64,000 bases of DNA from Modestobacter sp. VKM Ac-2986. Its GTDB lineage: Bacteria > Actinomycetota > Actinomycetes > Mycobacteriales > Geodermatophilaceae. Made by a program: the position numbers and the translations under genes. The stretch covers positions 62,001-126,000 of the forward strand of contig NZ_JAPVBH010000001.1 in the NCBI RefSeq assembly GCF_026967795.1. The letters run 5' to 3'. Below the pieces are notes generated by a model. That model was not told the DNA's origin and made no database searches. It was given only the letters and a program-made list of their open reading frames with translations. Every line of letters starts with the position of its first letter. Positions within the stretch are counted from its first letter, which is position 1. This document shows, piece by piece, positions 6,447 to 61,274 of the stretch.

Positions 6447-7564
6447 CCCACCGCCGGATCGACTGCGGGGAGCACGCACCCCTGCCGGTGGTCGCCGTCG
6501 GCGCCGGCGCGATGGGCCGGGCGTGGCTGCGCACGCTCGAGGCCTCGGCCGAGGTGGAGCTGGTCGGCATCGTCGACCTGGACACCGCCGCCGCCGGCCG
6601 GGCCGCCGCCGAGCTGGGCCGGCCCGAGCTGCCGATCGGCACCGACGCGGTCGCCCTGGCCGCGCAGACCGGTGCGGCCGCGGTGGTCGACGTGACCGTG
6701 CCGGTCGCCCACCACCCGGTCACCACCGCGGCGCTGCTGGCCGGCCTGCCGGTGCTGGGCGAGAAGCCCGCCGCGGACACGCTGTCCCGGGCGCTGTCGC
6801 TGGCCGCGGCGGCCGAGGTCAGCGGCGAGCTGTTCATGGTCAGCCAGTCGCGGCGGTGGAACCCGCGGGTCGCGGCACTGCACGGCCTGGTGCAGGACCT
6901 GGGCGCGGTCGGCACGCTGACCACGGAGTTCTTCAAGGCGCCGCACTTCGGCGGGTTCCGGGACGCGATGGACCAGCCGCTGCTGGTGGACATGGCCATC
7001 CACGCCTTCGACACCGCGCGGTACCTGCTGGGCGCCGAGCCGGTGTCGGCGTCCTGTTCCACGTGGAACCCGCCGTGGAGCTGGTACGCCGGGGACGCCA
7101 ACGCCACGGCACTGTTCACGATGGCCGACGGCTCGCGGTACTCCTACACCGGCTCGTGGTGCGCCCCCGGCGCGGAGACGTCCTGGAACGGCAGCTGGCG
7201 GGTCAGCGCCGAGCGCGGCACCGCCCTGTGGGACGGCGAGACCGAGCCGGTGCTGGACGCCGACGGGCTGGTCGCCACCGACCGGCCGCGCTCGCCGCAC
7301 AGCGACATCGCCGGCGCCCTCGAGGTGTTCTGCGCCGCGCTGCGCACCGGGGAGACCCCGATGGGCGAGGTGCACGAGAACGTGATGAGCCTGGCCATGG
7401 TCGAGGCGGCGGTCGAGTCGGCTGCCACCGGTGCGCCGGTGGAGCTGGACGACGTGCTGGCCCGGGCGCACGCGCAGGCGCTGGCGGAGGAGGCCCACCC
7501 CGCGGTCCGCGAGACGCTCGCCGGCTGGCCGTCGGTGCGCGAGGCGCTGACCGCCGCCGGGTAG
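6443..7564 (+). CDS. Gfo/Idh/MocA-family NAD(P)-dependent oxidoreductase
   Basis: A 373-residue sugar oxidoreductase. The N-terminal Rossmann domain has [17 protein letters not shown] with the dinucleotide-binding glycine motif, followed by the family motif GEKPAA around residue 107, whose Lys is catalytic in relatives. A C-terminal alpha/beta domain includes [12 protein letters not shown] and [18 protein letters not shown] 6443 overlaps the ThuA-like stop as GTGA. As the last gene of the importer operon it probably oxidizes or reduces the imported glycoside or its product. A parS-like palindrome lies inside the gene (7056-7069). Confidence 0.9.
7056..7069. other. parS-like ParB-binding site 1
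   Basis: GTTCCACGTGGAAC is a perfect 14-base palindrome inside the oxidoreductase gene, read there as codons for CSTWN. Identical copies occur at 37431 and 61261. It differs from the common actinobacterial parS GTTTCACGTGAAAC only at one symmetric position pair. Confidence 0.7.
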
Positions 7565-7661
7565 TCCGGCCACCCGGACCTCCCCTGGCCGCTCGACCGC
7601 CGGTCGGTCGTGCGTCACCTACTGTTCGACCATGCACGGAGCACGTCACGGAGGCCCCCCG

Positions 7662-9929
7662 GTGCCGAGCGAGGAGCAGGCCGGGGGCCCTTCCGCAGGT
7701 CCGGTCGACCCGCGCCGGGACCGGCTGACCGCCGCCCAGCGCGACGCCCGGGCGGACGTGCTGGCCCAGGCCACCTCGGCCGCCGCCACCGGGCCCGGGG
7801 ACGCGGGGACGCTGCCCGCCGTCCTGGGCGGGTCCGTGGTCGCCGTGCTGCTGGTCGACCGGCGCGACGGGACGGTGACCTTCGCGAACCGGGCCGCGAT
7901 CGCCCTGGCCGGTGACATCGGGCTGCCCGTCGGCCTCGACGCCTGGGCGGCCGCGGCCGGCCTGACCGACGCCTCCGGCGGCGCCCTGGACGGCGCCGAC
8001 GCCCCGCTGTCGCGCATCACCCGGGGGCTGCCGGTCGACGGCGAACCGGTGCGGCTGCCCGGCGTGCACCCGGCCGCGGGCGCCGATCCGGAGCTGCTGT
8101 CGATCACCGGCCTGCCGCTGGACCGCGACCCGGCGCCACCCGGCGCCGACCAGCACGCCCACCGGGACCTCTCGCTGGTGGTGCTGCTCCCGCTCGACGG
8201 CGGCGGGCCCGCCGGGGCACCGGTGGCGCGGGACACCGACGAGGAGCTGCGCCGGCTGCAGGAGCAGGCGATCCAGGCCACCGAGGTCTGCTTCACCATC
8301 GCCGACGCCCGCCGCCCCGACAACCCGCTCGTCTGGGTCAACCCGGCGTTCACCGCGGTGACCGGCTACCCCGCGGACCGGGCGATCGGCTTCAACTGCC
8401 GCTTCCTGCAGGGCCCGGACACCGACCCGGACGCGGTGACCGCCGTCCGCGAGGCGGTCGCGGCCGGGCGTCAGGAGACGGTGACGCTGCTGAACTACCG
8501 GGCCGACGGGTCCACGTTCTGGAACCAGCTGACCCTGACGCCGATCTTCGACGGCGCCGGCGAGCTGGCCAGTTTCGTCGGGGTGCAGCACGACGTGAGC
8601 ACCCAGGTCCGGCTGGAGCACCAGCGTGAGGCCGCGCTGCAGGCGGAGCGGCAGGCCCGGCAGACCGCCGAGACCGCCCGCCGGCGGCTGCAGCTGATGA
8701 GCGAGGCGTCGGCGACGCTGACCGGCACGCTGGACGTCGACGACCTCATGCAGCGCATCGCCGAGCTGTGCGTGCCCACCCTGGCCGACTCGGTGTTCAT
8801 CGCCCGGCTGGGCAGCGACGACGTCGTCACCTCCACCGTGCTCCGGCACCGGGACGGCCTGGACGACGAGCTCTCCCGGCTGGGCAGGAGGGTCACCGGC
8901 CGCCCGCTGACACCGCACTCCCCCGCGGCCGACTCGCTGCGCAGCGGGGGCGCCACCGTGGTCCCGGACGTGTCCGCGGCCGACGCCCGGGCGCGCTACC
9001 CCGACTCCGCCGTCCACCAGCTCATCGACCAGCTCGCCATCGGGTCCCTCGTCGCCCTGCCCCTGCAGGCGCGGGACGCCACCCTGGGGGTGCTGGTGCT
9101 CACCAGCGCCCGCACCGGCGCCTTCGACCGCGACGCCGTGGAGCTGCTCAGCGACCTGGCCGGCCGGGCCGGGCTGGCCCTGGACAACGCCCGGCTCTAC
9201 CAGGGGCAGCGTTCGGTCGCCGAGGCCCTGCAGCGCGCGCTGCTGCCCACCCTCCCCGACCTGCCCGACGTCCAGGCCGCGGCCCGGTACGAGTCGGCGT
9301 CCGCCGCCGCGGCCGTGGGCGGGGACTTCTACGACCTGCTGCCCCTGCCCGACGGCAGCATCGGGATCAGCATCGGCGACGTCGCCGGCCACGACGTCGA
9401 CGCGGCGGCCACCATGGGCCAGCTCCGCGGCCTGCTGCGGGCCAGCGCCCACGACGCCACCCGCCCCGACCCCGCCGACGTGCTGGCCCGCGTCGACGAG
9501 CTGATGGACGTGCTCTCGGTCCCGGGGCTGGCCACCCTGACGCACGTGCACGCCCACCGGCCCACGGGCGGGAAGGACCGGTGGCGGCTGGAGGTCGCCA
9601 ACGCCGGGCACCCGCCGCTGGTCCTGCGCCACCCCGACGGCACCGTCCACCTGCTGGACGACGTCCACGGGCTGATCCTCGGCGTCGACGCGACCACGAC
9701 CCGCGCCTCGGCCACGGTCTGGGCACCGCGCGGGAGCACGCTGGTCGCCTACACCGACGGCCTCATCGAACGCCACGACCAGTACCTCGACCAGGGGATC
9801 GACCGGCTCCTGGCCACCCTCACCGCACAGCCGGACGACGCCGACCCCGCGGACCTGTGCGACGTGCTCATGCGGCTGGCCGACACGCCCTCCGACGACG
9901 TCGCCGTCATCTGCGTGCGACTGCACTGA
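7662..9929 (+). CDS. Blue-light-type LOV photoreceptor phosphatase (PAS-LOV-GAF-PP2C)
   Basis: A 755-residue soluble signalling protein. Domains in order: a PAS-like region (about 50-190), a LOV domain (about 205-320), a coiled coil, a GAF domain (about 355-510) and a SpoIIE/RsbU-type PP2C phosphatase (about 520-750). The LOV domain has the photoactive motif GFNCRFLQG with Cys246, the FMN contacts NYRADGSTFWNQL, and the flipping Gln in FVGVQHDVS, so it should form the flavin-cysteinyl adduct. The phosphatase has GGDFYDLL, GDVAGHD, NAGHPPLVL, YTDGLIE and SDDVAVI, including metal-binding Asp residues. GTG 7662 is chosen because GGAGG lies 7 bases upstream; ATG 7632 is an alternative without such a site. 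It likely dephosphorylates a STAS anti-anti-sigma factor under blue light. Confidence 0.9.
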   Translation: MPSEEQAGGPSAGPVDPRRDRLTAAQRDARADVLAQATSAAATGPGDAGTLPAVLGGSVVAVLLVDRRDGTVTFANRAAIALAGDIGLPVGLDAWAAAAGLTDASGGALDGADAPLSRITRGLPVDGEPVRLPGVHPAAGADPELLSITGLPLDRDPAPPGADQHAHRDLSLVVLLPLDGGGPAGAPVARDTDEELRRLQEQAIQATEVCFTIADARRPDNPLVWVNPAFTAVTGYPADRAIGFNCRFLQGPDTDPDAVTAVREAVAAGRQETVTLLNYRADGSTFWNQLTLTPIFDGAGELASFVGVQHDVSTQVRLEHQREAALQAERQARQTAETARRRLQLMSEASATLTGTLDVDDLMQRIAELCVPTLADSVFIARLGSDDVVTSTVLRHRDGLDDELSRLGRRVTGRPLTPHSPAADSLRSGGATVVPDVSAADARARYPDSAVHQLIDQLAIGSLVALPLQARDATLGVLVLTSARTGAFDRDAVELLSDLAGRAGLALDNARLYQGQRSVAEALQRALLPTLPDLPDVQAAARYESASAAAAVGGDFYDLLPLPDGSIGISIGDVAGHDVDAAATMGQLRGLLRASAHDATRPDPADVLARVDELMDVLSVPGLATLTHVHAHRPTGGKDRWRLEVANAGHPPLVLRHPDGTVHLLDDVHGLILGVDATTTRASATVWAPRGSTLVAYTDGLIERHDQYLDQGIDRLLATLTAQPDDADPADLCDVLMRLADTPSDDVAVICVRLH

Positions 9930-10016
9930 CCCCGGCGCCCGGTCACGCCTCGGCGGGGGGCGACCGCTCCCGGCCGGCCCGGTTGCGCAGCCGCCGATCC
10001 GGGCAGAGGGCTGATC

Positions 10017-10220
10017 ATGTGGCTCTTCCTCACCCGCCGGTTCCGCACCTGGGTCCTGCTCACCTTCATCGTCCCGATCGCCAGCGGCCTGCTCCGCAAG
10101 CTCGGCCAGACCCTCGAGCGGCGCAACGGGCCCACCTCGGTGAGCAAGGGGCTGCTCAAGGCGGGCGCCCTCGGTGACCGCACGCGCGACCGGCTGCGCG
10201 GCGGCCGCAAGCGCCGTTGA
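10017..10220 (+). CDS. Small basic membrane protein, unknown function
   Basis: A 67-residue protein with one hydrophobic segment (about residues 10-25, TWVLLTFIVPIASGLL) and an arginine/lysine-rich C-terminus ending RGGRKRR. GAGGG about 8 bases upstream serves ATG 10017. Its third-position GC content looks coding. It ends two bases before the hydrolase start, suggesting a shared transcript. I do not recognise a function. Confidence 0.65.
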   Translation: MWLFLTRRFRTWVLLTFIVPIASGLLRKLGQTLERRNGPTSVSKGLLKAGALGDRTRDRLRGGRKRR

Positions 10221-10221
10221 G

Positions 10222-10950
10222 GTGACGGACCCCGTCACCCCCGACGCCGACCGGCCCGCACCGCGCCGGCCCGCGCTCGAGCAGCGTGCCGCCACCGGGG
10301 AGACCCGGGGCATCGCCCTGTTCTGTCACGGCGGCACGGTCGCCAGCATCGAACCGCCCAAGGAGCGGGCGCTGTCGCTGGTGCGGATGCGCGCCATCGA
10401 GACCTACGTGCACGCGGCCACCGCCGAGCGCGGCATCGCCACCGCCCTGCTCCGCTACCGCGTGGCCGGGTGGAACGGTGAGGCCGCCGACGCGCACGCC
10501 GACGTCCGCTGGGCGATCGGGCAGCTGCGTGAGCAGCACGGCACCGACGTCCCGATCGTGCTGGTCGGGCACTCGATGGGCGGCCGGGCCGCGCTGCGCG
10601 CCGGCGGCGAGCCATCGGTCACCGCGGTCTGCGCCCTGGCCCCCTGGACGCCGCCCGGTGAGCCGGTGATGCACCTGCGCGACCAGACGGTGGCCATCCT
10701 GCACGGCCGGGGCGACCGCTGGGTGCCCGCCCGGCTGTCGGCCGAGTTCGCCGTGCGCGCCCGCCGCGCCGGCGCCCGGGTCGCCCGGTTCACCGTCGTC
10801 GGCGGGCACGGCATGGTCCGCCGCTCCGGTGCCTGGCACGCCTTCGTCCGGGACGTCGTCCTGGCCGGCACCGGCCTGGAGCCGATGCGGCCCTCGATCG
10901 CCGAGGCGCTGCGCCAGCCGAGTCCGGAGGGTCTCGCCGTCCCGCTGTGA
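10222..10950 (+). CDS. Alpha/beta-fold hydrolase
   Basis: A 242-residue serine hydrolase. It shows the oxyanion-side strand IALFCHGG, the nucleophile elbow GHSMGG, an acidic residue in LHGRGDRWVP and a catalytic His in VVGGHGMVRR. GTG 10222 directly follows the small membrane protein; a GTG at 10174 would overlap that gene and is less likely. The substrate cannot be told from sequence. It converges on the ACC deaminase gene across a short hairpin. Confidence 0.8.
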   Translation: MTDPVTPDADRPAPRRPALEQRAATGETRGIALFCHGGTVASIEPPKERALSLVRMRAIETYVHAATAERGIATALLRYRVAGWNGEAADAHADVRWAIGQLREQHGTDVPIVLVGHSMGGRAALRAGGEPSVTAVCALAPWTPPGEPVMHLRDQTVAILHGRGDRWVPARLSAEFAVRARRAGARVARFTVVGGHGMVRRSGAWHAFVRDVVLAGTGLEPMRPSIAEALRQPSPEGLAVPL

Positions 10951-10956
10951 GGAGGG

Positions 10957-10986
10957 GCGCTGCCCAGCCGAGTGGCCGGGCAACGC
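10957..10986. terminator. Hairpin between convergent genes
   Basis: GCGCTGCCC at 10957-10965 pairs with GGGCAACGC at 10978-10986, with one mismatch, between the convergent hydrolase and ACC deaminase genes. There is no T-run. Confidence 0.4.
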
Positions 10987-10990
10987 TCAC

Positions 10991-12034
10991 TCAGGAGAAG
11001 AGCGCGCTGTAGCCGTTGAGGGCCGGCTGGCCGCCGAGGTGGGCGTAGAGCACGGTGGACGAGCGGTCGATCTCGCCGCGGCCGACCAGGTCGATCGTCG
11101 CGGCCATCGACTTCCCCTCGTAGACCGGGTCGGTGACCATGCCCTCGGTGCGCGCGGCCAGCTCCATCGCCGCGATCGTCGTCGCGTCCGGGATGCCGTA
11201 GATCCCGGCGTGGTACCGCTCGTCGAGCTCGACGTCGTCGAGGGTGAGCTCTCGTTCCACGCCGATCGCGGCCGCCGTCCGTTGCGCGATCCGCAGCACC
11301 TGGTCGCGGGTCTCGGTCGGCTTGGCGGAGGCGTCGATGCCCAGCACCCGGCGCGGCCGGGCACCGGCCTCCTCGAGCTGGGCGAAGCCGGCGACCATGC
11401 CGGCCTGGGTCGAGCCGGTCACCGAGCAGACGACGACGGTGTCGAAGAAGACGCCGAGCTCGGCCTCCTGCGCGGCGACCTCGTGCGCCCAGTTGGCGAA
11501 GCCGTGCCCGCCCAGCGGGTGGTCCGAGGCGCCGGCCGGGATCGGGTAGGGCTTGCCCCCGCGGTCGGTGATCTCGGCGAGCGCGGTCTCCCAGCTCTCC
11601 TTGAACCCGATGCCGAAGCCCGCCTTCACCAGCCGGACGTCGGCGCCGGCCAGCCGGGAGATGAGGATGTTGCCGACCTTGTCGTAGACGGCGTCGGGCC
11701 AGTCGACCCAGCTCTCCTGCACGAGCACGCACTTCAGCCCGACGTGCGCGGCGACGGCGGCGACCTGCCGGGTGTGGTTGCTCTGCACCCCGCCGATCGA
11801 GACGAGGGTGTCGCAGCCCTGGGCCAGGGCGTCGGCGACCAGGTACTCCAGCTTGCGGGTCTTGTTGCCGCCGTAGGCGATCCCGGAGTTCACGTCCTCG
11901 CGCTTGGCCCACACCGCGGCACCACCCAGGTGCGCGGTCAGCCGGTCGAGACGGTGCACCGGTGAGGGTCCGAACAGCAGCGGGTGGCGGGGGAAGTCCC
12001 CCAGGGAGGGCCGGGCGGGGTCAGGAACGCTCAT
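10991..12034 (-). CDS. acdS: 1-aminocyclopropane-1-carboxylate (ACC) deaminase
   Basis: A 347-residue PLP enzyme that splits ACC into 2-oxobutyrate and ammonia. It aligns almost end to end with Pseudomonas Acd[35 protein letters not shown] (PLP lysine in GGNKTRK), [19 protein letters not shown] and [11 protein letters not shown]. The Glu in YEGKS and the Leu in PALNGYS are the residues that distinguish true ACC deaminases from D-cysteine desulfhydrases. The gene overlaps its upstream GntR regulator by 14 bases, so the two are co-transcribed. This suggests plant association, where the enzyme lowers ethylene, or use of ACC as a nitrogen source. Confidence 0.93.
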
Positions 12035-12689
12035 CGGGGGTCTCCTCCAGCTCGGACAGCAGGGCGGTCCAGATCTCGGTCGTGGTGGACACGGCGGCGG
12101 CGACGTCGCCGTTCGCGCAGGCGCTGATCAGTCGCTCGTGCAGGACGACGGACCCGTGGCCGTGCGCCGCCGCGAAGCGCTGCCGCTCCAGCCGCCGGAC
12201 GGCGGGGGTGAAGCGGTCGATCGTGGCCCGCACGGCGCCGTTGCCGCAGCGGGCCAGCAGGACCTCGTGCAGCTCGTCGTCGGCGGCCAGCGCGGTGTCG
12301 AGGTCACCGGTGGCCACGGCGACGGCGAACCGCCGGTTGGCCGCCCGCATCGCGGTGACGTCCGCGGCGGTCACCGCGGGAGCCGCCTCGGCGACGGCGA
12401 GCTCGTGCATCGCCCGGACCACCACCGCGGCGTCGCGCACCTGCCGCAGGACCAGCGGGGTGACCCGGGTGTGGCTCTGCGGCTTGCTCTCCACCAGGCC
12501 CTCGTCGGCCAGCCGGGCCAGGGCCGTGCGCACCGGGGCGACCGAGAGGCCCAGCCGGCCGGCCAGCGCGCTGTCCTTGACCACCGAGCCGGGCGGCAGC
12601 TCACCGCTGAGGATCGCCGACCGGATGAGGGTCACCGCCTGGTCGCGCAGCAGCACGCGGGAGACGGGTTCGATCGGCACAACTGACAT
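12021..12689 (-). CDS. GntR-family (FadR/FCD type) transcriptional regulator
   Basis: A 222-residue regulator. A winged helix at about residues 10-75 ([29 protein letters not shown]) is followed by an all-helical FCD ligand domain rich in His/Asp residues. It is first in a two-gene operon with acdS. The palindrome CTGACATGTCAG touches its ATG, which fits autoregulation. GntR-type regulators have been reported next to acdS in actinobacteria, unlike the Lrp-type AcdR of proteobacteria. Ligand is inferred to be ACC or a product. Confidence 0.88.
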
Positions 12690-12701
12690 CTGACATGTCA
12701 G
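12690..12701. promoter_or_regulatory. GntR operator candidate at the acd operon
   Basis: CTGACATGTCAG, a perfect 12-base palindrome with TGTCA half-sites, begins directly upstream of the GntR start codon. The same palindrome, two bases longer, recurs at 16252-16265. Confidence 0.65.
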
Positions 12702-12727
12702 TTGGCCGTCGTGTCAAGGCCACGCAC

Positions 12728-12767
12728 GACAGCAGGGGCGGGGACCGCGGTCCCCACCCCTGCTGTC
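12728..12767. terminator. Strong hairpin downstream of the cytosine permease gene
   Basis: Bases 12728-12746 pair with 12749-12767 (11 pairs, one C-A mismatch, 7 pairs). The hairpin lies between the codB-like stop and the GntR promoter on the minus strand and probably ends the cytosine operon transcript. No T-run is present. Confidence 0.7.
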
Positions 12768-12787
12768 CGTCCCGTGCCGCAGTCGGC

Positions 12788-14083
12788 TCAGCCGACGGGA
12801 GCCGGGCGCCGTCCGCGCTGCACCAGGAGCACCCCGGCGACCGCCACCAGCACGCCGATCACCGGCGGGATGCCCCACTCGGCCTCGTTGCTCGCCCAGG
12901 CGGCGAGCGAGGCGACGACGTAGACGCCGACGTTGCGCCACTCGACGCCGGGCAGCAGCGCGGTGTCACCGGACATGCCACCGCGCCACCGGGCCAGGAA
13001 GTCGCCGATCACCACGCCGCCGAGCGGCGGGATCAGGATGCCCAGCCACACCAGGTAGTCGATGAGGTTGTCGTAGATGCCGGTGACGGCCAGCAGCGTG
13101 CCCAGGACGACGCCGCCCACGACGAAGGGCTTCTTCGACCGGGAGTCGGCGATCTCAGCGCCGGCCACGCCGAAGTTGTAGGCCGTGTTGTCGTTCGTCG
13201 TCCAGAGGTTGGCGACCAGGAAGACCAGCCCCCACCCGACCAGCCCGAGCTGGTAGAGCACCAGCACGAAGTCGCCCTCGCCGAAGGCCAGCGCGCCGAT
13301 CGAGCCGAAGCCCAGCATCAGCAGCTCACCGAGGAAGAAGGCCACCAGGCAGGCCCAGAGACCGGCCGACGGGGTGCGCGCGAAGCGGGTCCAGTTCGGG
13401 ACCTGCGTGCCGCCGGAGGCGAAGGTGCCGACGACGATCGTCACCGCGACCGCCACGGTCATCGACTCGGTCGGCACGATGGCCGCCAACCCGCTCCAGC
13501 CGCCCACCTCCTGCAGCGACCGCCAGGTGACCCACCCGGCGAGCACCAGCAGCAGTGGGACCGAGACCAGCGACAGCGCGTACATGCCGCGGTAGCCGAA
13601 GTACGCGGTCGCGCCCATCACCGCGCCGCCGACCACCATCAGCGCGACCTCCGGCCCGCGGCCCTCCCAGCCCAGGGCGCTGGCGGTGAGCTGGGCGAGG
13701 GTGGCGACGGTGACGCCGTACCAGCCGATCTGGGTGCCGCCCAGCAGCAGCGAGGCGAGCTTCGAGCCACGGGTGCCGAGGGTGTAACGGCACATCATCA
13801 CGGTGGTCAGCCCGGTCCGGGCGCCGATGCCCCCGATCACGGCGACGTAGACGCCCAGGACCGCGCTGCCCAGGAGCAGCACCCAGACCAGGCTGCCGGC
13901 GGTGAAGGCCGCCCCGATCTGCGCGCCGGCCAGCATCGTCGGGGTGAAGAAGGTGAAGCCCAGCAGCACCACGGACAGGGAGAACAGTGACTGCCGCGCG
14001 GACGCGGGCACCGGGTCGATGGGGTAGTCCGGGTCGACGGCACCGGCCGGGGCCCCGGCCTGGTTGCTCGTGCTGGTGCTCAT
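12788..14083 (-). CDS. codB: Cytosine/purine permease, NCS1 family (CodB type)
   Basis: A 431-residue membrane transporter with about 12 hydrophobic segments and a proline-rich cytoplasmic N-terminus. Typical NCS1 stretches include FTFFTPTMLAGAQIGAAF, CRYTLGTRGSKLASLLLG and TTNDNTAYNFGVAGAEI. The start at 14083 has GGAGG 8 bases upstream and overlaps the deaminase stop as ATGA. Import of cytosine coupled to the deaminase encoded just upstream is the obvious role; other nucleobases remain possible. Confidence 0.88.
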   Translation of the reverse strand: MSTSTSNQAGAPAGAVDPDYPIDPVPASARQSLFSLSVVLLGFTFFTPTMLAGAQIGAAFTAGSLVWVLLLGSAVLGVYVAVIGGIGARTGLTTVMMCRYTLGTRGSKLASLLLGGTQIGWYGVTVATLAQLTASALGWEGRGPEVALMVVGGAVMGATAYFGYRGMYALSLVSVPLLLVLAGWVTWRSLQEVGGWSGLAAIVPTESMTVAVAVTIVVGTFASGGTQVPNWTRFARTPSAGLWACLVAFFLGELLMLGFGSIGALAFGEGDFVLVLYQLGLVGWGLVFLVANLWTTNDNTAYNFGVAGAEIADSRSKKPFVVGGVVLGTLLAVTGIYDNLIDYLVWLGILIPPLGGVVIGDFLARWRGGMSGDTALLPGVEWRNVGVYVVASLAAWASNEAEWGIPPVIGVLVAVAGVLLVQRGRRPAPVG

Positions 14084-36647: not shown

Positions 36648-37139
36648 TCAGGGAGCGGGCGCCTCGCCGGCCTCGGCGACCAGCGGGAAGGCGGCCCGGA
36701 CGCCGGCCTGCTCGAGCGCTGCACCGGCACCGCCGGCGGCCTCGGCGGCGGGCGGGGCGACCAGGACGTCGATGCCGTCACCCTCAGGGCGCTCCCGGGC
36801 GCTGGTGACCAGCCCGGGGTGCTCGGCCAGCAGCCGCCCGGCCTCGGCCCGCAGGTCGGCGGGGCGGAACTCGGTGCGCGCGACGGTCAGCTCGAAGCCC
36901 TCGGCGCTGTCCAGCACCCGCTGCACGGCCGCCGGCGGCTCGCCGAACCAGCGGACGGTGAGCCGCTTGCGGTCCAGGCTGATCCCCGGCGTGCCGTACT
37001 CGGGGGCGTCGGCGGCCGCCTCGGACAGCCGCTCCAGCAGGTCGTAGATCGCTGTCGGCCCACCGGGGTAGGCGACGAACTCGCCGTGCCCGACCGAGCC
37101 GGACGGCGCCTGCTTCCCCGACCCCTTGCGCGCTGCCAT
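36648..37139 (-). CDS. Protein of unknown function
   Basis: A 163-residue soluble protein with no motif I recognise. It begins with a basic, Gly-rich stretch (MAARKGSGKQAPSGS), then GEFVAYPGGPTAIYDLLERL and RKRLTVRWFGEPPAAVQRVL, and ends in an Ala/Glu-rich tail. ATG 37139 has GGAGG 9 bases upstream; codon usage is clearly coding. It is divergent from the SDR gene with only 25 bases between starts. Confidence 0.75.
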   Translation of the reverse strand: MAARKGSGKQAPSGSVGHGEFVAYPGGPTAIYDLLERLSEAAADAPEYGTPGISLDRKRLTVRWFGEPPAAVQRVLDSAEGFELTVARTEFRPADLRAEAGRLLAEHPGLVTSARERPEGDGIDVLVAPPAAEAAGGAGAALEQAGVRAAFPLVAEAGEAPAP

Positions 37140-37164
37140 GCCCGCCATCCTCCACGCTGTGCCC

Positions 37165-37944
37165 ATGGAGCTGTCCGGAGCACGCATCTGGGTCACCGGC
37201 GCCTCGACCGGCATCGGCGCCGCGCTGGCCCGCGAGCTGGCCGACCGCGGCGCCCGGATGGCGATCAGCGCCCGCAGCGCCGACCAGCTGGCCGAGGTGG
37301 CGGCGGGCCGGATGGCCGTCGTCCCGGTCGACGTCACCGACCGGGCGGCCACCGTCGCCGCCGGGCAGGCGGTGCGTGAGGCGCTGGGCGGGCTGGACGT
37401 CGCGGTGCTCAACGCCGGCACCTGGTCGTCGTTCCACGTGGAACCGTGGGACTCCCAGCTGTTCGCCGACCACCTGCAGGTCAACGTGATGGGCGCCGTG
37501 CACACGATGGAGGCCGTCGTCCCGCAGATGATCGCCGCCGGGTCCGGGCGGGTCGTGGGCGTGGCCTCGGTCGCCGGGTACCGCGGCATGCCCGGCTCGG
37601 AGGCCTACAGCGCGGGCAAGGCGGCGCTGATCAACCTGCTGGAGAGCCTCCGCGGGTCGCTGGCCCCGCGCGGGGTCGTCGTCCAGACGGTGAACCCCGG
37701 CTTCGTCGCCACCCGGATGACCGACCGCAACCGCTTCCCCATGCCGTTCAAGGTCAGCGCCGAGGCCGCCGCGCGCACCATCGCCGACGGCATCGCCCGC
37801 GACCGCGCCGAGATCGTCTTCCCGCTGCCGATGGCGGTGCTGATGAAGGTCGTCCGGGTGCTACCGGTCAACGTCTGGACGGCGCTGACGGCGGCGATGG
37901 CCCGACGGGGGCTGCACGGCGGGCCGGAGCGTCGGCAGGGCTGA
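37165..37944 (+). CDS. Short-chain dehydrogenase/reductase (classical SDR)
   Basis: A 259-residue NAD(P)-dependent oxidoreductase. The cofactor motif is WVTGASTGIGAALA, then DVAVLNAG, active-site Ser in VGVASVAGY, and YSAGKAAL with catalytic Tyr and Lys. The C-terminus has a hydrophobic LPMAVLMKVVRVLPVNV, suggesting membrane association. ATG 37165 is chosen by homology; no clear ribosome-binding site is seen. A parS-like site lies inside the gene. Confidence 0.88.
   Translation: MELSGARIWVTGASTGIGAALARELADRGARMAISARSADQLAEVAAGRMAVVPVDVTDRAATVAAGQAVREALGGLDVAVLNAGTWSSFHVEPWDSQLFADHLQVNVMGAVHTMEAVVPQMIAAGSGRVVGVASVAGYRGMPGSEAYSAGKAALINLLESLRGSLAPRGVVVQTVNPGFVATRMTDRNRFPMPFKVSAEAAARTIADGIARDRAEIVFPLPMAVLMKVVRVLPVNVWTALTAAMARRGLHGGPERRQG
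37431..37444. other. parS-like ParB-binding site 2
   Basis: GTTCCACGTGGAAC lies within the SDR gene, read there as part of SFHVEP, a different reading frame from copy 1. The DNA word rather than the protein is therefore conserved. Confidence 0.7.
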
Positions 37945-52484: not shown

Positions 52485-52508
52485 CCGCGGTCGGGGAAGG
52501 GACCGCGG
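52485..52508. other. Inverted repeat in the leader of the unknown gene
   Basis: CCGCGGTC and GACCGCGG pair across an 8-base loop, 24 bases upstream of ATG 52461. The rest of 52462-52745 holds no gene that I can support. Confidence 0.4.
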
Positions 52509-53696: not shown

Positions 53697-53698
53697 GC

Positions 53699-53737
53699 GG
53701 AGTGGGTCCGTCGCGGTCACCGCTACGGACCCACTCC
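53699..53737. terminator. Hairpin between convergent nucleoside hydrolase and osmoprotectant operon
   Basis: GGAGTGGGTCCGT (53699-53711) pairs perfectly with 53725-53737 around a 13-base loop, filling nearly all of the space between the two stop codons. Confidence 0.7.
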
Positions 53738-53739
53738 AC

Positions 53740-54717: not shown

Positions 54718-55532
54718 CACAGCCCCTTCGGTCGGGCGACGTGCTCGACCACGCGGCCGAGCCAGTCGACGGCCAGCGCCAGCAGGGCGACGAGCACGGC
54801 CCCGGAGACCAGCAGCGAGTTCAGGTTCAGCGTGATGCCGGTGTTGATCAGCACGCCCAGGCCACCGCCGTCGATGAAGGTGGCCAGCGTCGCGGTGCCC
54901 ACCAGCAGCACCAGCGCGGTGCGCACCCCGGCGAGCATGACCGGGACGGCGAGCGGCAGCTCCACCCGGAACAGCACCGCCGCGGCGCTCATCCCCATGC
55001 CCCGGCCGGCCTCGACCAGCCGGGCGTCGACCTGCTGGATGCCGACCATGGTGTTGCGCAGCACCGGCAGCGCGGCGTAGAGCACCAGGCCGATCACCGT
55101 CGTCCGGAACCCGAACCCGAGCCACATGGCCAGCAGCACGAACAGGCCGATGGCCGGTGCGGCCTGGCCGGTGTTGGCCACGGCGAGCACCAGCGGGCTG
55201 AGCCGGCGGAACGGGCCGCGGGTCAGCGCGATCCCCAGCGGGATGGCGATGACCAGCACCAGCACCGCGGCGACCAGGGTCAGCGAGAGGTGCTCGCGGA
55301 TGCTGGTCCACAGCGCGGTGGCGTTGAGCTGACGGGCCTCGGTCTCGGTCAGCGTCGCGGTGGCCCGCCACACGAGGTACGCCGCGACACCCAGCAGGAC
55401 CAGCAGCGGCTGGACGGCCAGTGCCCGCCAGCCACCACGGGCCTTCGCCGGGGCAGCGGTGTCCCGGGCGTCGGCGGCCGCGCCGGCCCCGGCGGTGTCG
55501 ACGCCGGGCCGGCCGGTGGTCGCCGCGGTCAC
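54717..55532 (-). CDS. Osmoprotectant ABC transporter permease (OpuCB/OpuCD type) 2
   Basis: A 271-residue permease with about six helices. The N-terminal 35 residues are Ala-rich and cytoplasmic. TGQAAPAIGLFVLLAMWLGF and YAALPVLRNTMVGIQQVD with VEAGRGMGMS form the typical QAT coupling region. GTG 55532 overlaps the ATPase stop as GTGA. Confidence 0.92.
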   Translation of the reverse strand: MTAATTGRPGVDTAGAGAAADARDTAAPAKARGGWRALAVQPLLVLLGVAAYLVWRATATLTETEARQLNATALWTSIREHLSLTLVAAVLVLVIAIPLGIALTRGPFRRLSPLVLAVANTGQAAPAIGLFVLLAMWLGFGFRTTVIGLVLYAALPVLRNTMVGIQQVDARLVEAGRGMGMSAAAVLFRVELPLAVPVMLAGVRTALVLLVGTATLATFIDGGGLGVLINTGITLNLNSLLVSGAVLVALLALAVDWLGRVVEHVARPKGL

Positions 55533-56713
55533 CCGGCGACCGCCGCGCGGGCCTGCCGGATGGCGGCCATGACGCTCTCGATGGTGAGCACGCCGGCCAG
55601 GCTGTCGCGGTTGCCCATCACGACCACTCCTGCCTGGCTGGCGGCCAGCATGGTGTCCAGTGCGTCGTTGAGGGTCGAGCGCAGGCCGACGACCGGCAGA
55701 CGCGCGTCGACGGTGCCCGGCACGGACGTCGTCCGGCCGAGCTCGGCGAGCGTGGGCCAGCTGACCGGACGGCCCCGCTGGTCGAGGACGACCACGAAGT
55801 CGTCGCCGGCCGCACGGGCCACGGCGACGGCAGCCGCGGAGTCGCCGCCGACGGTCGCGGTGGTGACCTGCCGGAGCTCGACGTCCTCGACCCGGGCCAG
55901 GGTCAGCTGCTTCAGCGTCGCCCCGGCGCCCACGAAGTCGGCGACGTACTGCTCGGCCGGGTCGCTGAGGACCTCCTCCGGCGTGCCGTGCTGCACGACC
56001 CGGGCCCCGACGTCGAAGACGACGATCTTGTCGCCGAGCTTCACGGCCTCGTCGAAGTCGTGGGTGACGCAGACGATGGTCTTGCCCAGCTCGTCCTGGA
56101 TGCGCAGCATCTCGTCCTGCAGGCGCTGGCGGGTGATCGGGTCGACGGCGCCGAACGGCTCGTCCATCAGCAGCACCGGCGGGTCGGCGGCCAGCCCGCG
56201 GGCGACGCCGACGCGCTGCTGCTGCCCGCCGGAGAGCTCCCGGGGGTAGCGGTCGCGGTAGACCGTGGGGTCCAGCCCGACCAGGTCCAGCAGCTCGTCG
56301 ACGCGGCCGGCGACCTTCTTCTTCTCCCAGCCGAGCATCTTCGGCACCAGGGCCACGTTGGCGCCCACGGTCATGTGCGGGAAGAGCCCGCCGGCCTGGA
56401 TGACGTAGCCGATCCGGCGGCGCAGCTGGTCGGGGTCCTGCCCGGTGACGTCCTCGTCGCCCAGGAAGATCTTGCCGCTGGTGGGCTCGATGAGCCGGTT
56501 GATCATCTTCAGCAGCGTGGTCTTCCCGCAGCCGGAGGGGCCGACGAACATCGTCGTCCTGCCGGCAGGGAGCTCCAGGGTGACGGCGTCGACGGCCGGC
56601 TTGTCCTGCCCGGGGTAGCGCTTGGTGACGCCCTCGAGCCGGATCGGCAGGCCGCTGGCCCGCCGTCCGCTCGAGGCGACGGTGGCGCCGGCCGGCGCCT
56701 TGGTGTCAGACAC
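55529..56713 (-). CDS. Osmoprotectant ABC transporter ATPase with CBS domains (OpuCA type)
   Basis: A 394-residue ATPase. Walker A GPSGCGKTT, signature ELSGGQQQRVGVARGLA, Walker B LLMDEPFGAVD and VTHDFDEAVKLGD are present. The C-terminal third (about 255-390) holds paired CBS motifs (LDTMLAASQAGVVVMGNRDSLAGVL), which sense ionic strength or nucleotides in OpuA/OpuC. GTG 56713 overlaps the upstream permease by 8 bases. Confidence 0.94.
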   Translation of the reverse strand: MSDTKAPAGATVASSGRRASGLPIRLEGVTKRYPGQDKPAVDAVTLELPAGRTTMFVGPSGCGKTTLLKMINRLIEPTSGKIFLGDEDVTGQDPDQLRRRIGYVIQAGGLFPHMTVGANVALVPKMLGWEKKKVAGRVDELLDLVGLDPTVYRDRYPRELSGGQQQRVGVARGLAADPPVLLMDEPFGAVDPITRQRLQDEMLRIQDELGKTIVCVTHDFDEAVKLGDKIVVFDVGARVVQHGTPEEVLSDPAEQYVADFVGAGATLKQLTLARVEDVELRQVTTATVGGDSAAAVAVARAAGDDFVVVLDQRGRPVSWPTLAELGRTTSVPGTVDARLPVVGLRSTLNDALDTMLAASQAGVVVMGNRDSLAGVLTIESVMAAIRQARAAVAG

Positions 56714-57347
56714 GGATCCCCCTGGGGGTGGTGAGGCGACCGGCCAGCACGAGCAGCAGGTCGAGGACGAGGGCCAGCAGGACGACGGCCATCGTCCCGG
56801 TGAGCGCGGAGTTGACGGCGTTGGCGCCACCGAGCCGGGAGAGCCCGGTGAAGATGAAGCCGCCCAGGCCCGGGCCGAGCACGTAGGCGGCGATCGCCGC
56901 GATGCCCATGACCATCTGGGTGGACGTGCGGACGCCGGCCAGGATGACCGGCCAGGCCAGCGGCACCTCCACGCGCAGCAGGGTGGCCAGCCGGCTCATG
57001 CCCATGCCGCGGGCGGACTCGACCAGCGACGGGTCGACCCCGGCCAGCCCAACGACGGCGTTGCGCAGCACCGGCAGCGCGGCGTAGAAGGTGACGGCGA
57101 TGACCGCCGGGGTGATGCCGAAGCCGAAGGGCGCCAGCAGGATGCCCAGCAGCGCGAAGGCCGGGATGGTCAGCCCGACGGCGGACACCCCGTTGGCCAG
57201 TGCGGTGGCCCGGGGGCTCCGGTAGACCGCCATCGCGACCAGCAGCGCGATCACCGTGCCCAGGAGCACGCACTGCACGACCAGGCTGAGGTGCTGCAGC
57301 GCCTGCTGGGCGATCTGGCCGCGCCGGTCCAGCACGTAGTCCCACAT
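56706..57347 (-). CDS. Osmoprotectant ABC transporter permease (OpuCB type) 1
   Basis: A 213-residue permease beginning MWDYVLDRRGQIAQQALQHL, the normal start for this family; longer frames lack homology. It shows TIPAFALLGILLAPFGFG and YAALPVLRNAVVGLAGVDPS with ESARGMGMS. It is first in the four-gene opuC-like operon. A GGAGGAGGAG stretch lies 11 bases upstream. Confidence 0.92.
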   Translation of the reverse strand: MWDYVLDRRGQIAQQALQHLSLVVQCVLLGTVIALLVAMAVYRSPRATALANGVSAVGLTIPAFALLGILLAPFGFGITPAVIAVTFYAALPVLRNAVVGLAGVDPSLVESARGMGMSRLATLLRVEVPLAWPVILAGVRTSTQMVMGIAAIAAYVLGPGLGGFIFTGLSRLGGANAVNSALTGTMAVVLLALVLDLLLVLAGRLTTPRGIRV

Positions 57348-57721
57348 CCGAGGTGGCTCCTCCTCCGCCCGGCTCGAGGGTGCCGGGACGTTCGTCGCCA
57401 CGGGGGCGCCCGGCGGTCCTCCGGCGGCACGGTGGCCGCGCCCGAGGAGCCGCACGCGGGAGGCCGTCCCCCGCGCGGGACGACGGGCCTGGGCTCGGCC
57501 CTCGTCGTCCGGGTGTGTCACGGTGTCACAGCCTGCGGGGGACCGCGAACGAGGGGACGGAACGCCACCGGAGCGGAACCCCAGGTGATCGACGGCCGGC
57601 AGGCGTGGCGCACCCCCATCGGGGTAGCGGAGCAGGGTCGCCCTCCCGCTCCACCAGCGCCGGAGCAGAGGATCACCCGGGGCACGACGTCCCGGACGGA
57701 CGAGGAGGAACCATCAACACC
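57348..57721. other. 374-base region between the osmoprotectant operon and STAS gene
   Basis: No convincing gene is present. The region contains the direct repeat GTGTCACG/GTGTCACA at 57515-57530 and GGAGGAA at 57704-57710, ribosome-binding site for the STAS gene. It should hold the two divergent promoters. Confidence 0.5.
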
Positions 57722-58135
57722 GTGAGGCCGGCAGCTGAACCAGCGTCGTTCGACGTGGCGCTGACCGACGGGCCCGAGCCCGGTCAGCTCGTCGCGCAGG
57801 TGCACGGCGAGCTCGACGCGGCCGGCAACCCGCTGCTGCAGGCCACCCTCCTCAAGGCGTTGCGCCGGGCCGCGCGGGTGCTGACCATCGACCTGTCCGG
57901 GGTCACCTTCTTCGGCTCGGCCGGCGTGACCGCGCTCGTCTGGGTCAGCCAGCACCCCGAGGCCGCCGGCAAGCACGTGCGGGTCGTGGCCACCAGCCGC
58001 ATCGTCACCGGTCCGCTGGAGCTCACCGGGCTGCTGGAACGACTGGACGTGGAGGGCATGCCCGAGACGCCCGACGGGCCCGCCGGCAGGACCCCCGGCG
58101 CCGTCGACGAGAGCCCTGCCCCGCCGTCCCGCTGA
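57722..58135 (+). CDS. STAS-domain anti-anti-sigma factor
   Basis: A 137-residue protein with one STAS domain (about 12-115). LTIDLSGVTFFGSAGVTALV holds the phosphorylatable Ser (in FFGSAGV) in the expected place after the strand. VATSRIVTGPLELTGLLERL follows. GTG 57722 is 11 bases from GGAGGAA, rather far. It lies upstream of an RsbW-like ATPase gene and would be its binding partner and a substrate for PP2C phosphatases. Confidence 0.9.
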   Translation: MRPAAEPASFDVALTDGPEPGQLVAQVHGELDAAGNPLLQATLLKALRRAARVLTIDLSGVTFFGSAGVTALVWVSQHPEAAGKHVRVVATSRIVTGPLELTGLLERLDVEGMPETPDGPAGRTPGAVDESPAPPSR

Positions 58136-58233
58136 GCGACACGACTCCCGTCGGGACCCCCCTGTGGTGCAGGAGACGTCGGCGTCGGCCACGATGGGTG
58201 CCGGAGACACCGACCCAGCGGGAGGACCGAAGA

Positions 58234-58716
58234 GTGAGTGCACTGGTCTGGCCCTCCGCACCCGTCCCCTCCGAGGAGGGCGACGTCTGGCGGTGGGAGC
58301 TGCCCACGGTGCACGACGCCTCTCGCGTCCGGATGGACCTGCGCGCCCGCCTCGCCCACCCCTCACTGGCCGCCCGGTCGACCGAGGACGCCCGTGAGGG
58401 CCTGCTGCTGACGTTCGAGGAGCTGAGTTCCAACGCCCTGCGGCACGGCGGCGGCTCGGTGGAGGCGGTGATCCACGCGCTGCCCACGGGCTGGCTGATC
58501 GTGCTCACCGACGGCAACCCCGACTCCCCGCCGCAGCCCGCGGTCGACCGCGACCCCGCCTACGGGGGCATGGGGCTGCCGATGGTCGCCCAGCTGTCGG
58601 TCGACTACGGCTGGGCCGCCGAGCCCGGCCGCAAGCACGTCTGGGCGATGCTCCCCTCCGGGATGGCCGCGGCTGCGGTCCCCCGCCCCCGCTCCTCCTC
58701 CGGCCCGGCGGCCTGA
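58234..58716 (+). CDS. RsbW/SpoIIAB-like ATP-binding anti-sigma/kinase protein 2
   Basis: A 160-residue HATPase_c protein. The N-box is FEELSSNALRHGGGSV and the lid GGMGLPMVAQLSVDYGW. GTG 58234 follows GGGAGGA by 7 bases. It lies 98 bases after the STAS gene, giving an antagonist/kinase pair. It is a paralogue of the protein at 46345. The last 112 bases overlap the convergent kinase gene. Confidence 0.88.
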   Translation: MSALVWPSAPVPSEEGDVWRWELPTVHDASRVRMDLRARLAHPSLAARSTEDAREGLLLTFEELSSNALRHGGGSVEAVIHALPTGWLIVLTDGNPDSPPQPAVDRDPAYGGMGLPMVAQLSVDYGWAAEPGRKHVWAMLPSGMAAAAVPRPRSSSGPAA

Positions 58717-59174
58717 GGAAGGACCCCCTCGCCGCCCACTGCACGGACGACCGTCACCTCGGTGAAGCCCTCGGCCGTCGTGGGGGCGACCAGCCGGCCC
58801 GCGGCAGCATGCAGCCCGACCAGGGGCACGCGAGCAGCACCCGTGCGGGCGTCGTTGCGTTCCCGGCACGTCCCCAGCGGGACGTCGAGGAACACCGCCC
58901 GCACGGGGACGCAGGCCGCTGCGGCGATCGCGATCAGCGGGGCGCGTTCGGCGACCGACGGCGAGGTGTTGTCGACGACGACGCTGCGGCCCTCGGCCAG
59001 CAGCTCCGCGACCACCCGCTGCTGCCGCGCCTCGCGGTGCCGGGCGCGCGGCCAGTGGTCCTTGCTGACCACGACGTGGGTGCCGGCCAGGTGCCCGGCC
59101 ACCCACGTCGACTTCCCCGACGCCTGCAGCCCGACCACGACCACCAGCTCCTGCGGCCGGGCCGCCGGTCTCAC
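58605..59174 (-). CDS. P-loop AAA/kinase-like protein
   Basis: A 189-residue protein resembling polynucleotide-kinase-type P-loop proteins. Walker A is VVVGLQASGKST; VVSKDHWPRARHREARQQ and VVVDNTSPSVAER follow, and the lid is near PLGTCRERNDARTG. GTG 59174 overlaps the upstream gene as GTGA. The kinase fold ends near 58760; the last ~50 residues are antisense to a stop-adjacent repeat and the end of the ATPase gene and look like an acquired tail. Substrate unknown. Confidence 0.75.
   Translation of the reverse strand: MRPAARPQELVVVVGLQASGKSTWVAGHLAGTHVVVSKDHWPRARHREARQQRVVAELLAEGRSVVVDNTSPSVAERAPLIAIAAAACVPVRAVFLDVPLGTCRERNDARTGAARVPLVGLHAAAGRLVAPTTAEGFTEVTVVRAVGGEGVLPQAAGPEEERGRGTAAAAIPEGSIAQTCLRPGSAAQP
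58717..58745 (+). repeat. Stop-codon-adjacent repeat, copy 3 (5' half)
   Basis: GGAAGGACCCCCTCGCCGCC follows the stop of the RsbW-like gene directly. It matches the first half of the copy at 59927; the second half is missing. It lies in the 3' part of the convergent kinase frame. Confidence 0.5.
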
Positions 59175-59437
59175 GCGGTGGCGCGGAGCCGGGTCACCGG
59201 CGCGTCGTCGTCCTCGGCGCCGGGGCGGGGCGCGGGGTGCTCGACCAGGGCGAGCACCCGGCCGGACATGAACCGGGCGGTGCGCACCGTCGTGCCGCCC
59301 CGGGTCACCTCGGCGACTTCCACGACCCCGCGGCCGTGCGTGGTCTCCACCCGGCGACCGGCCCGGGTCGCCTCGATGTCGTACGTGCGCACGCTGCCGC
59401 CTGCATCGACGACGACCTCCACGCGGTCACCCTTCAC
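59171..59437 (-). CDS. Small protein of unknown function
   Basis: An 88-residue protein, probably beta-rich (VEVVVDAGGSVRTYDIEATR, GVVEVAEVTRGGTTVRTARF). GAGGAGG lies upstream of GTG 59437. It overlaps the P-loop protein gene by 4 bases, so the two are co-translated. I recognise no family. Confidence 0.65.
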   Translation of the reverse strand: MKGDRVEVVVDAGGSVRTYDIEATRAGRRVETTHGRGVVEVAEVTRGGTTVRTARFMSGRVLALVEHPAPRPGAEDDDAPVTRLRATA

Positions 59438-59578
59438 GGCGTCCTCCTCGTTGCCTCGTCCACACCAGGTGGAACACCCCCAGGGGGTACCGGATTCCCA
59501 GGTCAGCGGCCTGCCAGGGGTTGATCACCGCCGGGGATGGGCACACGGGAGCAGTTGCCCGCGATCGAAGGAGACCCT

Positions 59579-59926
59579 GTGTTCCCGGCCGAGAACATCC
59601 GTGACTGGCGCACCCTCAACGTCGTCGACCCCACCGGCGCCAAGATCGGCACCCTGGAGTCGGTCTACGTCGACACGACCACCGACCAGCCGTTCTTCGC
59701 CGCCGTGGTCACCGGCTTCATCGGCCGGCACAAGCTGACCTTCGTGCCGCTGACCGACGCCACGGTCGCGCCCGACCACATCACGGTCCAGGTGAGCAAG
59801 GACCTGGCGAAGAACGCCCCGTCGATCGACACCGACGGGGAGCTGCCCGCGGAGTCCGAGCCCGAGGTGTTCAACTACTACGGCTTCGCGTACACCCCTG
59901 GCGTCCGGCGGCTCGCCCGCCGCTGA
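59579..59926 (+). CDS. PRC-barrel domain protein
   Basis: A 115-residue protein with a PRC barrel (about 8-85): ENIRDWRTLNVVDPTGAKIG, LESVYVDTTTDQPFFAAVV and KLTFVPLTDATVAPDHITV. A tail contains FNYYGFAY. GTG 59579 is chosen because AAGGAG lies 5 bases upstream; ATG 59537 would add 14 residues. PRC-barrel proteins of this size are common in stress-tolerant actinobacteria; function unknown. Confidence 0.82.
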   Translation: MFPAENIRDWRTLNVVDPTGAKIGTLESVYVDTTTDQPFFAAVVTGFIGRHKLTFVPLTDATVAPDHITVQVSKDLAKNAPSIDTDGELPAESEPEVFNYYGFAYTPGVRRLARR

Positions 59927-59989
59927 CGAAGGACCCCCTTGCCCCCCACCACGAGCGAGCTCGCGGCGGGACCCGGCAAGGGGGCCTTC
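59927..59989. repeat. Stop-codon-adjacent repeat, copy 4, full hairpin
   Basis: Right after the TGA at 59924 comes CGAAGGACCCCCTTGCC; it pairs with GGCAAGGGGGCCTTC (59975-59989), with one bulged base. The far end runs into the convergent NYN gene stop at 59988-59990. The loop includes CGAGCGAGCTCG. It likely acts as a bidirectional terminator. Confidence 0.75.
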
Positions 59990-60674
59990 AGCCGCGCCGG
60001 GCGGTGAAGGCGCTGGCGGCGTCGCGCAGGCTCTTCGTGGGCTTGAGCCAGGCACCGTCGACGGGCAGGGCGTCGAGCCGGACACGGTCCAGCGGCGCGG
60101 CGAACGCGCCGGGCACGTCCTCGATGTCGATGAAGCGCAGCAGCTCCGAGCTGATCGCGTAGCCGGCGACCTCGCTGAAGGCGACGACGACGACCTCGGT
60201 GCCCGAGCGGGCGAGGTCCTCCAACGGCTCGGCGAAGTTGCGGCCGTCACCGGAGAACACCACCAGGCGGCGCAGCTGGTGGCTGTGCGCGCGGACGCTG
60301 ATGTGGTCGAGCATCGACTGGTCGATGTCGTCGTCCTGCTGCAGCTTGGGCCGGGCGAAGACCGCGTACCCGAAGCTGCGCAGTGCCTCGACCCAGCGCT
60401 GCAGCGAGGTGGCGTGCTGCGGCGGGACGTTGGCGAAGACCGCGGCCTCCACCTCCGTCTGCGGCTCCGAGGCGCCGTCCACGAACCAGGCGGCGATCGC
60501 GTCGAAGCGCGGCCGGGACGCCGCGGTCGGCCGGGCCCCGATGACGTTGGACAGCGTCATGTCGATGTTCGGCGCGTCCCAGACCAGCAGGTCCAGCGGC
60601 GGGCGGGCGCCGTCCAGCGAGGGCTGGTCGTACCCGTCGGCCGGTCGGGTCTCTTCGACGAGGCTGTCGGTCAC
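59988..60674 (-). CDS. NYN-domain (PIN-like) protein
   Basis: A 228-residue protein. The NYN/LabA-type motifs are LLVWDAPNIDMTLSNVIG near residue 27, an acidic patch in QQDDDIDQSMLDHI, and RRLVVFSGDGRNFAEPLEDL with TEVVVVAF. The acidic residues fit a metal-dependent RNase site. GTG 60674 is the start; the frame runs further upstream without homology. RNA target unknown. Confidence 0.82.
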   Translation of the reverse strand: MTDSLVEETRPADGYDQPSLDGARPPLDLLVWDAPNIDMTLSNVIGARPTAASRPRFDAIAAWFVDGASEPQTEVEAAVFANVPPQHATSLQRWVEALRSFGYAVFARPKLQQDDDIDQSMLDHISVRAHSHQLRRLVVFSGDGRNFAEPLEDLARSGTEVVVVAFSEVAGYAISSELLRFIDIEDVPGAFAAPLDRVRLDALPVDGAWLKPTKSLRDAASAFTARRG

Positions 60675-60850
60675 CCGCCCAGTGTGCCGGTCCTCGCCCG
60701 TGGTGCGGACCGGCGGGCGGGTCGGCGCCACCGGTGTGCCCGCCGGGGCCGTCGCCCGGCGGCGGACGCGCGCGGTCACCGCTCCACCTGGGACGCGGGA
60801 CGGTGAGCTCACAGGGCGCACGGTACGAGGCCGCGGCGACGGGGCCGCAC

Positions 60851-61240
60851 TCAGGCGCGCACCAGCCCGTGCAGGGCCAGCAGCGCCACCGGGGCGTAGC
60901 CGACCACCAGGGGCAGCGGCCCGCGCACCCGCAGGCCCGTCGTCGTCCCGCCGTCCGGGCCGGGGGTGACCCAGTGCAGCAGGGTGAGCCGGGCCGGGCC
61001 GACCTGCACCGTCCACCGCCAGCGCCGGGTGGCGGTGTCGACCTCGTCGACCAGGAAGGGCACCGAGACGCCCGCCGGACCGAGCACCCGGCCGGTGACG
61101 CCCTGCGTGATCGTCGCCGCGTCGGTGTCCGCGCCGGTGATGTACGGCGACCAGCTCGACCAGCGGGCGGGGTGCAGGTAGCGGTCCCAGGCCTCCGCGG
61201 GGTCGACGGGGCCGGTGGCGTGCAGGGTCAGCGTGGTCAC
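60851..61240 (-). CDS. SRPBCC (START/polyketide cyclase-like) protein
   Basis: A 129-residue protein of the SRPBCC fold: PAEAWDRYLHPARWSSWSPY, VTGRVLGPAGVSVPFLVDEV, RRWRWTVQVGPARLTLLHWV. It has a hydrophobic C-terminal helix. The start is uncertain; GTG 61240 fits the fold, though the frame is open upstream through the parS-like site. Ligand unknown. Confidence 0.75.
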   Translation of the reverse strand: MTTLTLHATGPVDPAEAWDRYLHPARWSSWSPYITGADTDAATITQGVTGRVLGPAGVSVPFLVDEVDTATRRWRWTVQVGPARLTLLHWVTPGPDGGTTTGLRVRGPLPLVVGYAPVALLALHGLVRA

Positions 61241-61260
61241 CTCGGGCCAGTGCCCCGGTC

Positions 61261-61274
61261 GTTCCACGTGGAAC
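61261..61274. other. parS-like ParB-binding site 3
   Basis: The third exact copy of GTTCCACGTGGAAC lies between cinA and the SRPBCC gene. The three copies are about 30 kb and 24 kb apart. Confidence 0.7.

Follow-up and report, generated by a model that had tools for sequence, protein, structure and literature searches.

Origin-centred 14-base palindromes in Modestobacter sp. VKM Ac-2986 as probable parS sites of a chromosomal ParABS system

Why does one 14-base palindrome recur at three distant places of a GC-rich actinobacterial chromosome, twice inside genes and once between them? The question is raised by a stretch of 64 kb from Modestobacter sp. VKM Ac-2986 (family Geodermatophilaceae), here called the window, which corresponds to C1:62001-126000, C1 being one of the 15 contigs of a genome of 4,190,401 bases. 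A scan of the window finds the palindrome, GTTCCACGTGGAAC, exactly at 7056, 37431 and 61261, just as an earlier note on this DNA had reported, and at all three places the 14-mer matches the near-palindromic consensus tGTTnCACGTGnAACa. Judged from the sequence and its comparison with relatives, the three palindromes would be parS sites of a chromosomal ParABS system, with a probability of about 97%, and the origin-centred set to which they belong very probably serves to pull apart the copied chromosomes. The array is a canonical parS array and in this respect ordinary biology, a neat detail being variant sites that are arranged by distance.

The array around dnaA and parAB

The count of the palindrome relative to dnaA and parAB, which the earlier note had proposed as a check, finds 12 exact copies in the genome, all on contig C1 between 69056 and 359363 (290 kb) and none on the other 14 contigs, while the reversed word, taken as a control, has no copy genome-wide. 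The copies reach 119 kb to the left of parB and 172 kb to its right, with dnaA inside the cluster, and the chance that 12 random points would be confined to an arc of this length is about 2e-12; an even spread around the chromosome, which the earlier note had named as the outcome speaking against parS, is not what is seen. The gene dnaA lies at C1:180266-182068, about 6-8 kb from parB, and the window ends 54 kb from dnaA, which bears out its supposed nearness to oriC. The window is situated in the left flank of the array and its sites are the three left-most of the 12 perfect copies. In addition there are six one-mismatch copies, all on C1 from 53886 to 436008, so that the array consists of 12 perfect sites (18 with the one-mismatch sites) over about 0.3-0.4 Mb around dnaA and parAB. 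With up to two mismatches the genome holds 27 places (12 + 6 + 9) against 23 for the reversed word, the latter being a total without its split by mismatch, and the nine two-mismatch places are treated as noise.

That the sites are chance hits or by-products of coding might be suggested by the peptides that two of the window sites encode (CSTWN at 7056, FHVE at 37431), and by the flanks of 37431, which in relatives are 93-95% identical as well. Markov models of order 0-3, trained on 400 kb around the origin, predict only 1.0e-4 to 1.6e-4 exact copies per 64 kb versus the 3 seen, and 0.006-0.011 per genome versus 12, which agrees with the view that even a single copy would be unexpected; no further copy with up to two mismatches is present in the window, and shuffled windows contain 0.19 such matches on average. 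Eight of the 12 perfect copies lie between genes, although 90% of the DNA is called coding (p ~4e-6), and so do 11 of all 18 sites, according to a crude codon-usage gene caller made for this analysis. The four genic ones use two reading frames, CSTWN at 7056 and SFHVE at 37431 being read differently as claimed, and the intergenic copy at 172064 stays perfect in relatives with flanks that are only 53% identical. Coding does not cause the conservation, and the chance or by-product explanation is already refuted by the genome-wide count and the conservation. The third window copy was claimed to lie between genes, and no Pfam-supported gene runs across 61261, with the caution that a minus-strand ORF (open reading frame) at 60851-61369 would take the site in if its upstream start were used; the codon-usage caller starts this ORF at 61240 and leaves the site outside. 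An embedding in metabolic genes, as proposed in the earlier note, holds for 7056 and 37431, but genome-wide such sites are the minority.

A palindrome that is mostly intergenic could also serve a transcription factor as its operator, the regulon lying near the origin by happenstance, and regulation of a promoter by a ParB-parS pair next to parA is conceivable too. The genes that hold or border the scanned sites (PolyA_pol/HD, DBI_PRT/nitroreductase, YaaA, cinA, oxidoreductases) are, however, of unrelated function, and besides the four perfect sites within genes five more lie within 20 bp of the 3' end of a gene, which are not promoter positions. As the clustering at the origin is moreover kept in another genus and the copy number in 9 of 12 genera, it is very improbable that the palindrome is such an operator.

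The parS reading is further supported by the genes at the centre of the array. At E <= 0.001 the ParB model TIGR00180 has a single match in the genome (206 bits, C1:187821-188354), and parA and parB lie together near oriC (AAA_31 4.1e-54; ParB_N 1.1e-36 and HTH_ParB 5.5e-35) and adjoin gidB. Two of the perfect sites, 186398 and 186433 (starts 35 bp apart), are found between gidB/rsmG and parA, with parB next. The ParB protein has an N-terminal domain (ParB_N), a helix-turn-helix domain (HTH_ParB) and a dimerisation domain (ParB_C), and the closest named ParB, from Modestobacter sp. VKM Ac-2977 of the same family, is 90% identical.

This ParB also bears on the question whether the palindromes could be Noc-binding sites (NBS) for nucleoid occlusion and not for segregation, as Noc is a ParB paralogue with related sites. 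The palindromes have the G at position 1 and the CACGTG core of parS and do not follow the NBS consensus TATTTCCCGGGAAATA. NBS would not be expected to be packed around oriC. Jalal et al. named the parS-contact positions of Caulobacter ParB as well as two specificity-switching positions at which Noc has Q and R (PMC7383237). The only ParB-family match of this genome has R and G at the equivalents of these two positions (Caulobacter 173 and 201), like all 36 aligned ParBs of the family, and it has G-R-S-R, T and G at the places of the parS-reading residues; the reader helix GRSRSQVTNT and a later AGHAR match the contact positions, the correspondence of the numbering being in each case inferred. 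The probability that the sites are NBS can therefore be regarded as minute.

For the parS reading, the binding of GTTCCACGTGGAAC by the cognate ParB would be expected by analogy with Myxococcus xanthus, in which the parS consensus is TGTTCCACGTGGAACG and a gel shift shows ParB bound to one site of this kind in vitro (PMC3899335). The further steps are likewise those expected from the family: a ParB dimer would recognise the two half-sites of parS, close into a clamp bound to cytidine triphosphate and slide onto the flanking DNA, building around the origin a partition complex that would be moved by ParA and would receive SMC. Through the two sites next to parA, ParB may in addition control its own operon.

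Table 1. Coordinates of the probable parS sites and of the genes that hold or border them in the window
Feature	Window position	Strand	Position on C1	Context	Distance from parB
Probable parS site	7056..7069	.	69056	within Gfo/Idh/MocA oxidoreductase gene, peptide SCSTWNP	~119 kb
Probable parS site	37431..37444	.	99431	within short-chain dehydrogenase gene, peptide SSFHVEP	~88 kb
Probable parS site	61261..61274	.	123261	intergenic, ~10 bp past cinA stop	~65 kb
Gfo/Idh/MocA oxidoreductase ORF	5666..7564	+		Pfam GFO_IDH_MocA 2.1e-10; holds site 7056	
Short-chain dehydrogenase ORF	37126..37944	+		Pfam PF00106 (adh_short) 1.2e-44; holds site 37431	
cinA ORF	61284..62567	-		Pfam CinA 1.6e-49, MoCF_biosynth 4.6e-32; 3' end borders site 61261	
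One-sided GTTGCACGTGGAAC site			53886	outside window	
One-sided GTTGCACGTGGAAC site			240952	outside window	
One-sided GTTGCACGTGGAAC site			305586	outside window	
One-sided GTTGCACGTGGAAC site			315931	outside window	
One-sided GTTGCACGTGGAAC site			394229	outside window	
One-sided GTTGCACGTGGAAC site			435995	outside window	

Conservation and turnover of the sites in relatives

Exact copies of GTTCCACGTGGAAC, between 6 and 15 per genome, are present in 47 of 56 genomes of the family (the window's own included), and the reversed control has none in any of the 56. In the single-contig genomes G042 and G039 parB is bracketed by sites, in G039 across the ends of the record. When the 12 perfect and six one-mismatch sites were followed into three relatives of the same genus, 17, 16 and 12 of the 18 could be aligned (1, 2 and 6 could not) and 15, 15 and 8 of these were unchanged, where 14-mers within 200 bp would lead one to expect only 5.0, 2.0 and 1.4; the sites are thus conserved beyond their flanks. 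Among the window sites, 37431 is perfect at the orthologous place in all three relatives, and 61261 in both relatives that can be aligned across it (the third has no alignment there), in one of them with flanks of 70% identity.

Several observations weigh against the parS reading, at least for single sites. For the site at 7056 none of the three relatives gives an aligned counterpart, and in genome G065, which has the respective gene in full length at 90% identity, the site carries three mismatches. The outermost perfect copy on the right, 359363, is imperfect in all three relatives, and G062 has a broken site 262496 and a single change in 186398. Also the assembly, with its 15 contigs, leaves the circular map unclosed, yet all exact copies are on C1. 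It can be said that marginal sites come and go. G065 has 13 sites of its own, and its orthologue of the 7056 gene is situated among them, at a distance of about 109 kb from two neighbouring sites that are taken to be its parA pair.

The gene around 7056, which starts at 6443 by codon usage (again a crude call), has no full-length DNA match in 21 of 23 genomes of the genus (own included in the 23), and because of this the stretch 6443-7564 looks like accessory DNA inside the origin domain. The gene adjoins an ORF with a ThuA domain, and directly downstream of it, at window 7632-9929, a signalling-type gene encodes a PAS-GAF-SpoIIE phosphatase-type protein of 765 amino acids.

Position 4 of the palindrome

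The earlier note had taken the word for parS with one symmetric change. The match to parS stands, but the form is not unusual, as the version with C at position 4 is itself a published parS consensus (Myxococcus, Pseudomonas) and the one found in the 47 family genomes. The other actinobacterial arrays compared (Streptomyces, Corynebacterium glutamicum, Mycobacterium) mainly have T here, as in GTTTCACGTGAAAC of Mycobacterium smegmatis, or N in one half in the case of C. glutamicum. In 80 ParB loci of named genomes, 72 with a full-pattern site and 8 without, the half-sites up to about 10 kb from parB have T in 432 cases, C in 71 and G in one; from this tally and the family counts it follows that C at position 4 is a habit of the lineage and no oddity. 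The nine family genomes without an exact copy are every examined member of three genera, and one genome of each of these genera has two copies of GTTTCACGTGAAAC beside parB (L114, L115, L117). One of the two forms, C or T, has given way to the other within this family, which constitutes a natural experiment in parS turnover.

The G+C content may contribute to C at position 4, a link that is real but modest (Spearman 0.34, p 0.003, for 72 of the 80 loci, the 8 without a full-pattern site being dropped); Micromonospora, with 72% GC, has T in all 12 half-sites (L029). As a ParB residue that could explain T versus C, the equivalent of Caulobacter 184 was considered, which within the family is K in 33 of 33 sequences of the C type and R in 3 of 3 of the T type. 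It was rejected as the cause because across the 72 loci K and R go along with a similar share of C (0.15, n=26, versus 0.19, n=20).

The six one-mismatch copies are all GTTGCACGTGGAAC, with C changed to G at position 4 of one half, and as three of the six are intergenic, codon use alone is no explanation for the G. With the pattern GTTDCACGTGGAAC, 20 family genomes contain 113 sites, 96 with G, 17 with T and none with A, and the 17 T sites are all no farther than 2 kb from parB and belong to 17 different genomes of the 20, the three other genomes all being of genus g2. In 11 genomes of the genus (own included) there are 51 sites, 48 with G and three with T, the latter again within 2 kb of parB, and the reversed control is zero in all 11 and all 20 genomes. 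One-sided G sites are present in 20 of 20 family genomes and in 9 of 10 genus genomes besides the window's own. If position 4 is left free in both halves, three genomes have 53 sites, namely 31 C/C, 19 G/C and three T/G, with no G/G and no A form among them; since the three T/G sites are far from parA, the restriction to parA applies to T opposite C and not to T in general. The pair upstream of parA often includes one T/C site (L101, L102, L104-L108, L111, L112, L116), and in the window genome both members are C/C.

The G sites are farther out than the C/C sites in each of nine genomes (one-sided p 0.0004 to 0.033; overall median distance 121 kb versus 43 kb), which are not nine independent tests, as sister genomes share sites, and which were chosen for contiguity with the site positions in view. 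In the case of G062 only 400 kb were covered for the C/C sites but the whole genome for the G sites, which favours the ring pattern; for G039 the length was set to a rounded 4,300,000, the shortest and longest fitting lengths giving p 0.0008 to 0.003 in a recheck that pooled G and T/G and excluded T/C. On the parB contigs of 25 genomes the G sites, which number 114 if the three T/G are counted, lie at a median of 129 kb from parB, with a minimum of 39 kb and a maximum of 451 kb, and only one of the 114 is closer than 40 kb. These distance counts omit sites on contigs without parB, genomes without such a site on the parB contig (among them G007, G015, G021, G047 and G058), and G057, G060 and G063, for which the parB position was not looked up. 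Of 15 cases that can be aligned at orthologous places, 14 retain the G; it is missing only from the copy of 53886 in G062, which is a broken site.

A polarity of the one-sided sites was also considered and dropped. Within the window's genus 53 of 62 sites have the G half turned towards the origin, but most of these are the same sites recurring in sister species, and in other genera, where the direction is not consistent, the figure is 30 of 52 (p 0.33).

From the arrangement by distance a tentative proposal can be drawn, for which the odds are below even: position 4 may be a place code in Geodermatophilaceae, with T/C beside parA only, C/C in the core, and one-sided G in an outer ring reaching 450 kb, where orthologous sites retain both the G and its orientation. 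Such a ring could then consist of deliberately weaker ParB loading sites, which would widen the origin domain or tune the loading of ParB and SMC with distance. In the limited passages available of the literature on Geodermatophilaceae parS and on degenerate or distal parS, no description of a place-dependent position 4 was found.

Other parS arrays and the meaning of this one

The same 14-base palindrome is located near oriC and parAB in M. xanthus and in Pseudomonas aeruginosa and P. putida, and for M. xanthus and P. aeruginosa binding by ParB has been shown. Sites near oriC and a ParB of the same family are likewise known from Streptomyces, C. glutamicum and Mycobacterium. The extent of the arrays differs, however: the 12 perfect sites extend here over 290 kb, whereas in M. 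xanthus about 3 kb contain most of the 22 sites (PMC3899335), and P. aeruginosa has only four close to oriC (PMC4368675), C. glutamicum ten in 35 kb, one of them genic and nine intergenic (PMC7083940), and Streptomyces on average 22.8 with a bias to the right arm (PMC8743542). In P. aeruginosa the perfect parS2 and parS3 are TGTTCCACGTGGAACA and imperfect sites bind less (PMC4368675). Among its lower-affinity sites, parS5-parS10 and half-parS, some have one intact and one changed arm and lie away from the core, like the G sites here, but there the changes are of several kinds, whereas here it is always C to G at position 4 (6/6). In C. glutamicum, ParB is not recruited by the far degenerate sites, which carry three or more mismatches (PMC7083940).

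In the body of papers that was searched, none on parS of Geodermatophilaceae was found, and the present sites supply a parS set for this family; the side of the contig on which the origin lies could be fixed from three short words. A single parS suffices for segregation in C. glutamicum (PMC7083940), and one oriC-proximal parS in P. aeruginosa (PMC4368675). If the graded arrangement in Geodermatophilaceae corresponds to a graded affinity of ParB, a comparison of the core with the ring could address the question of why a dozen or more parS sites are maintained in some bacteria although one is enough in those two organisms.

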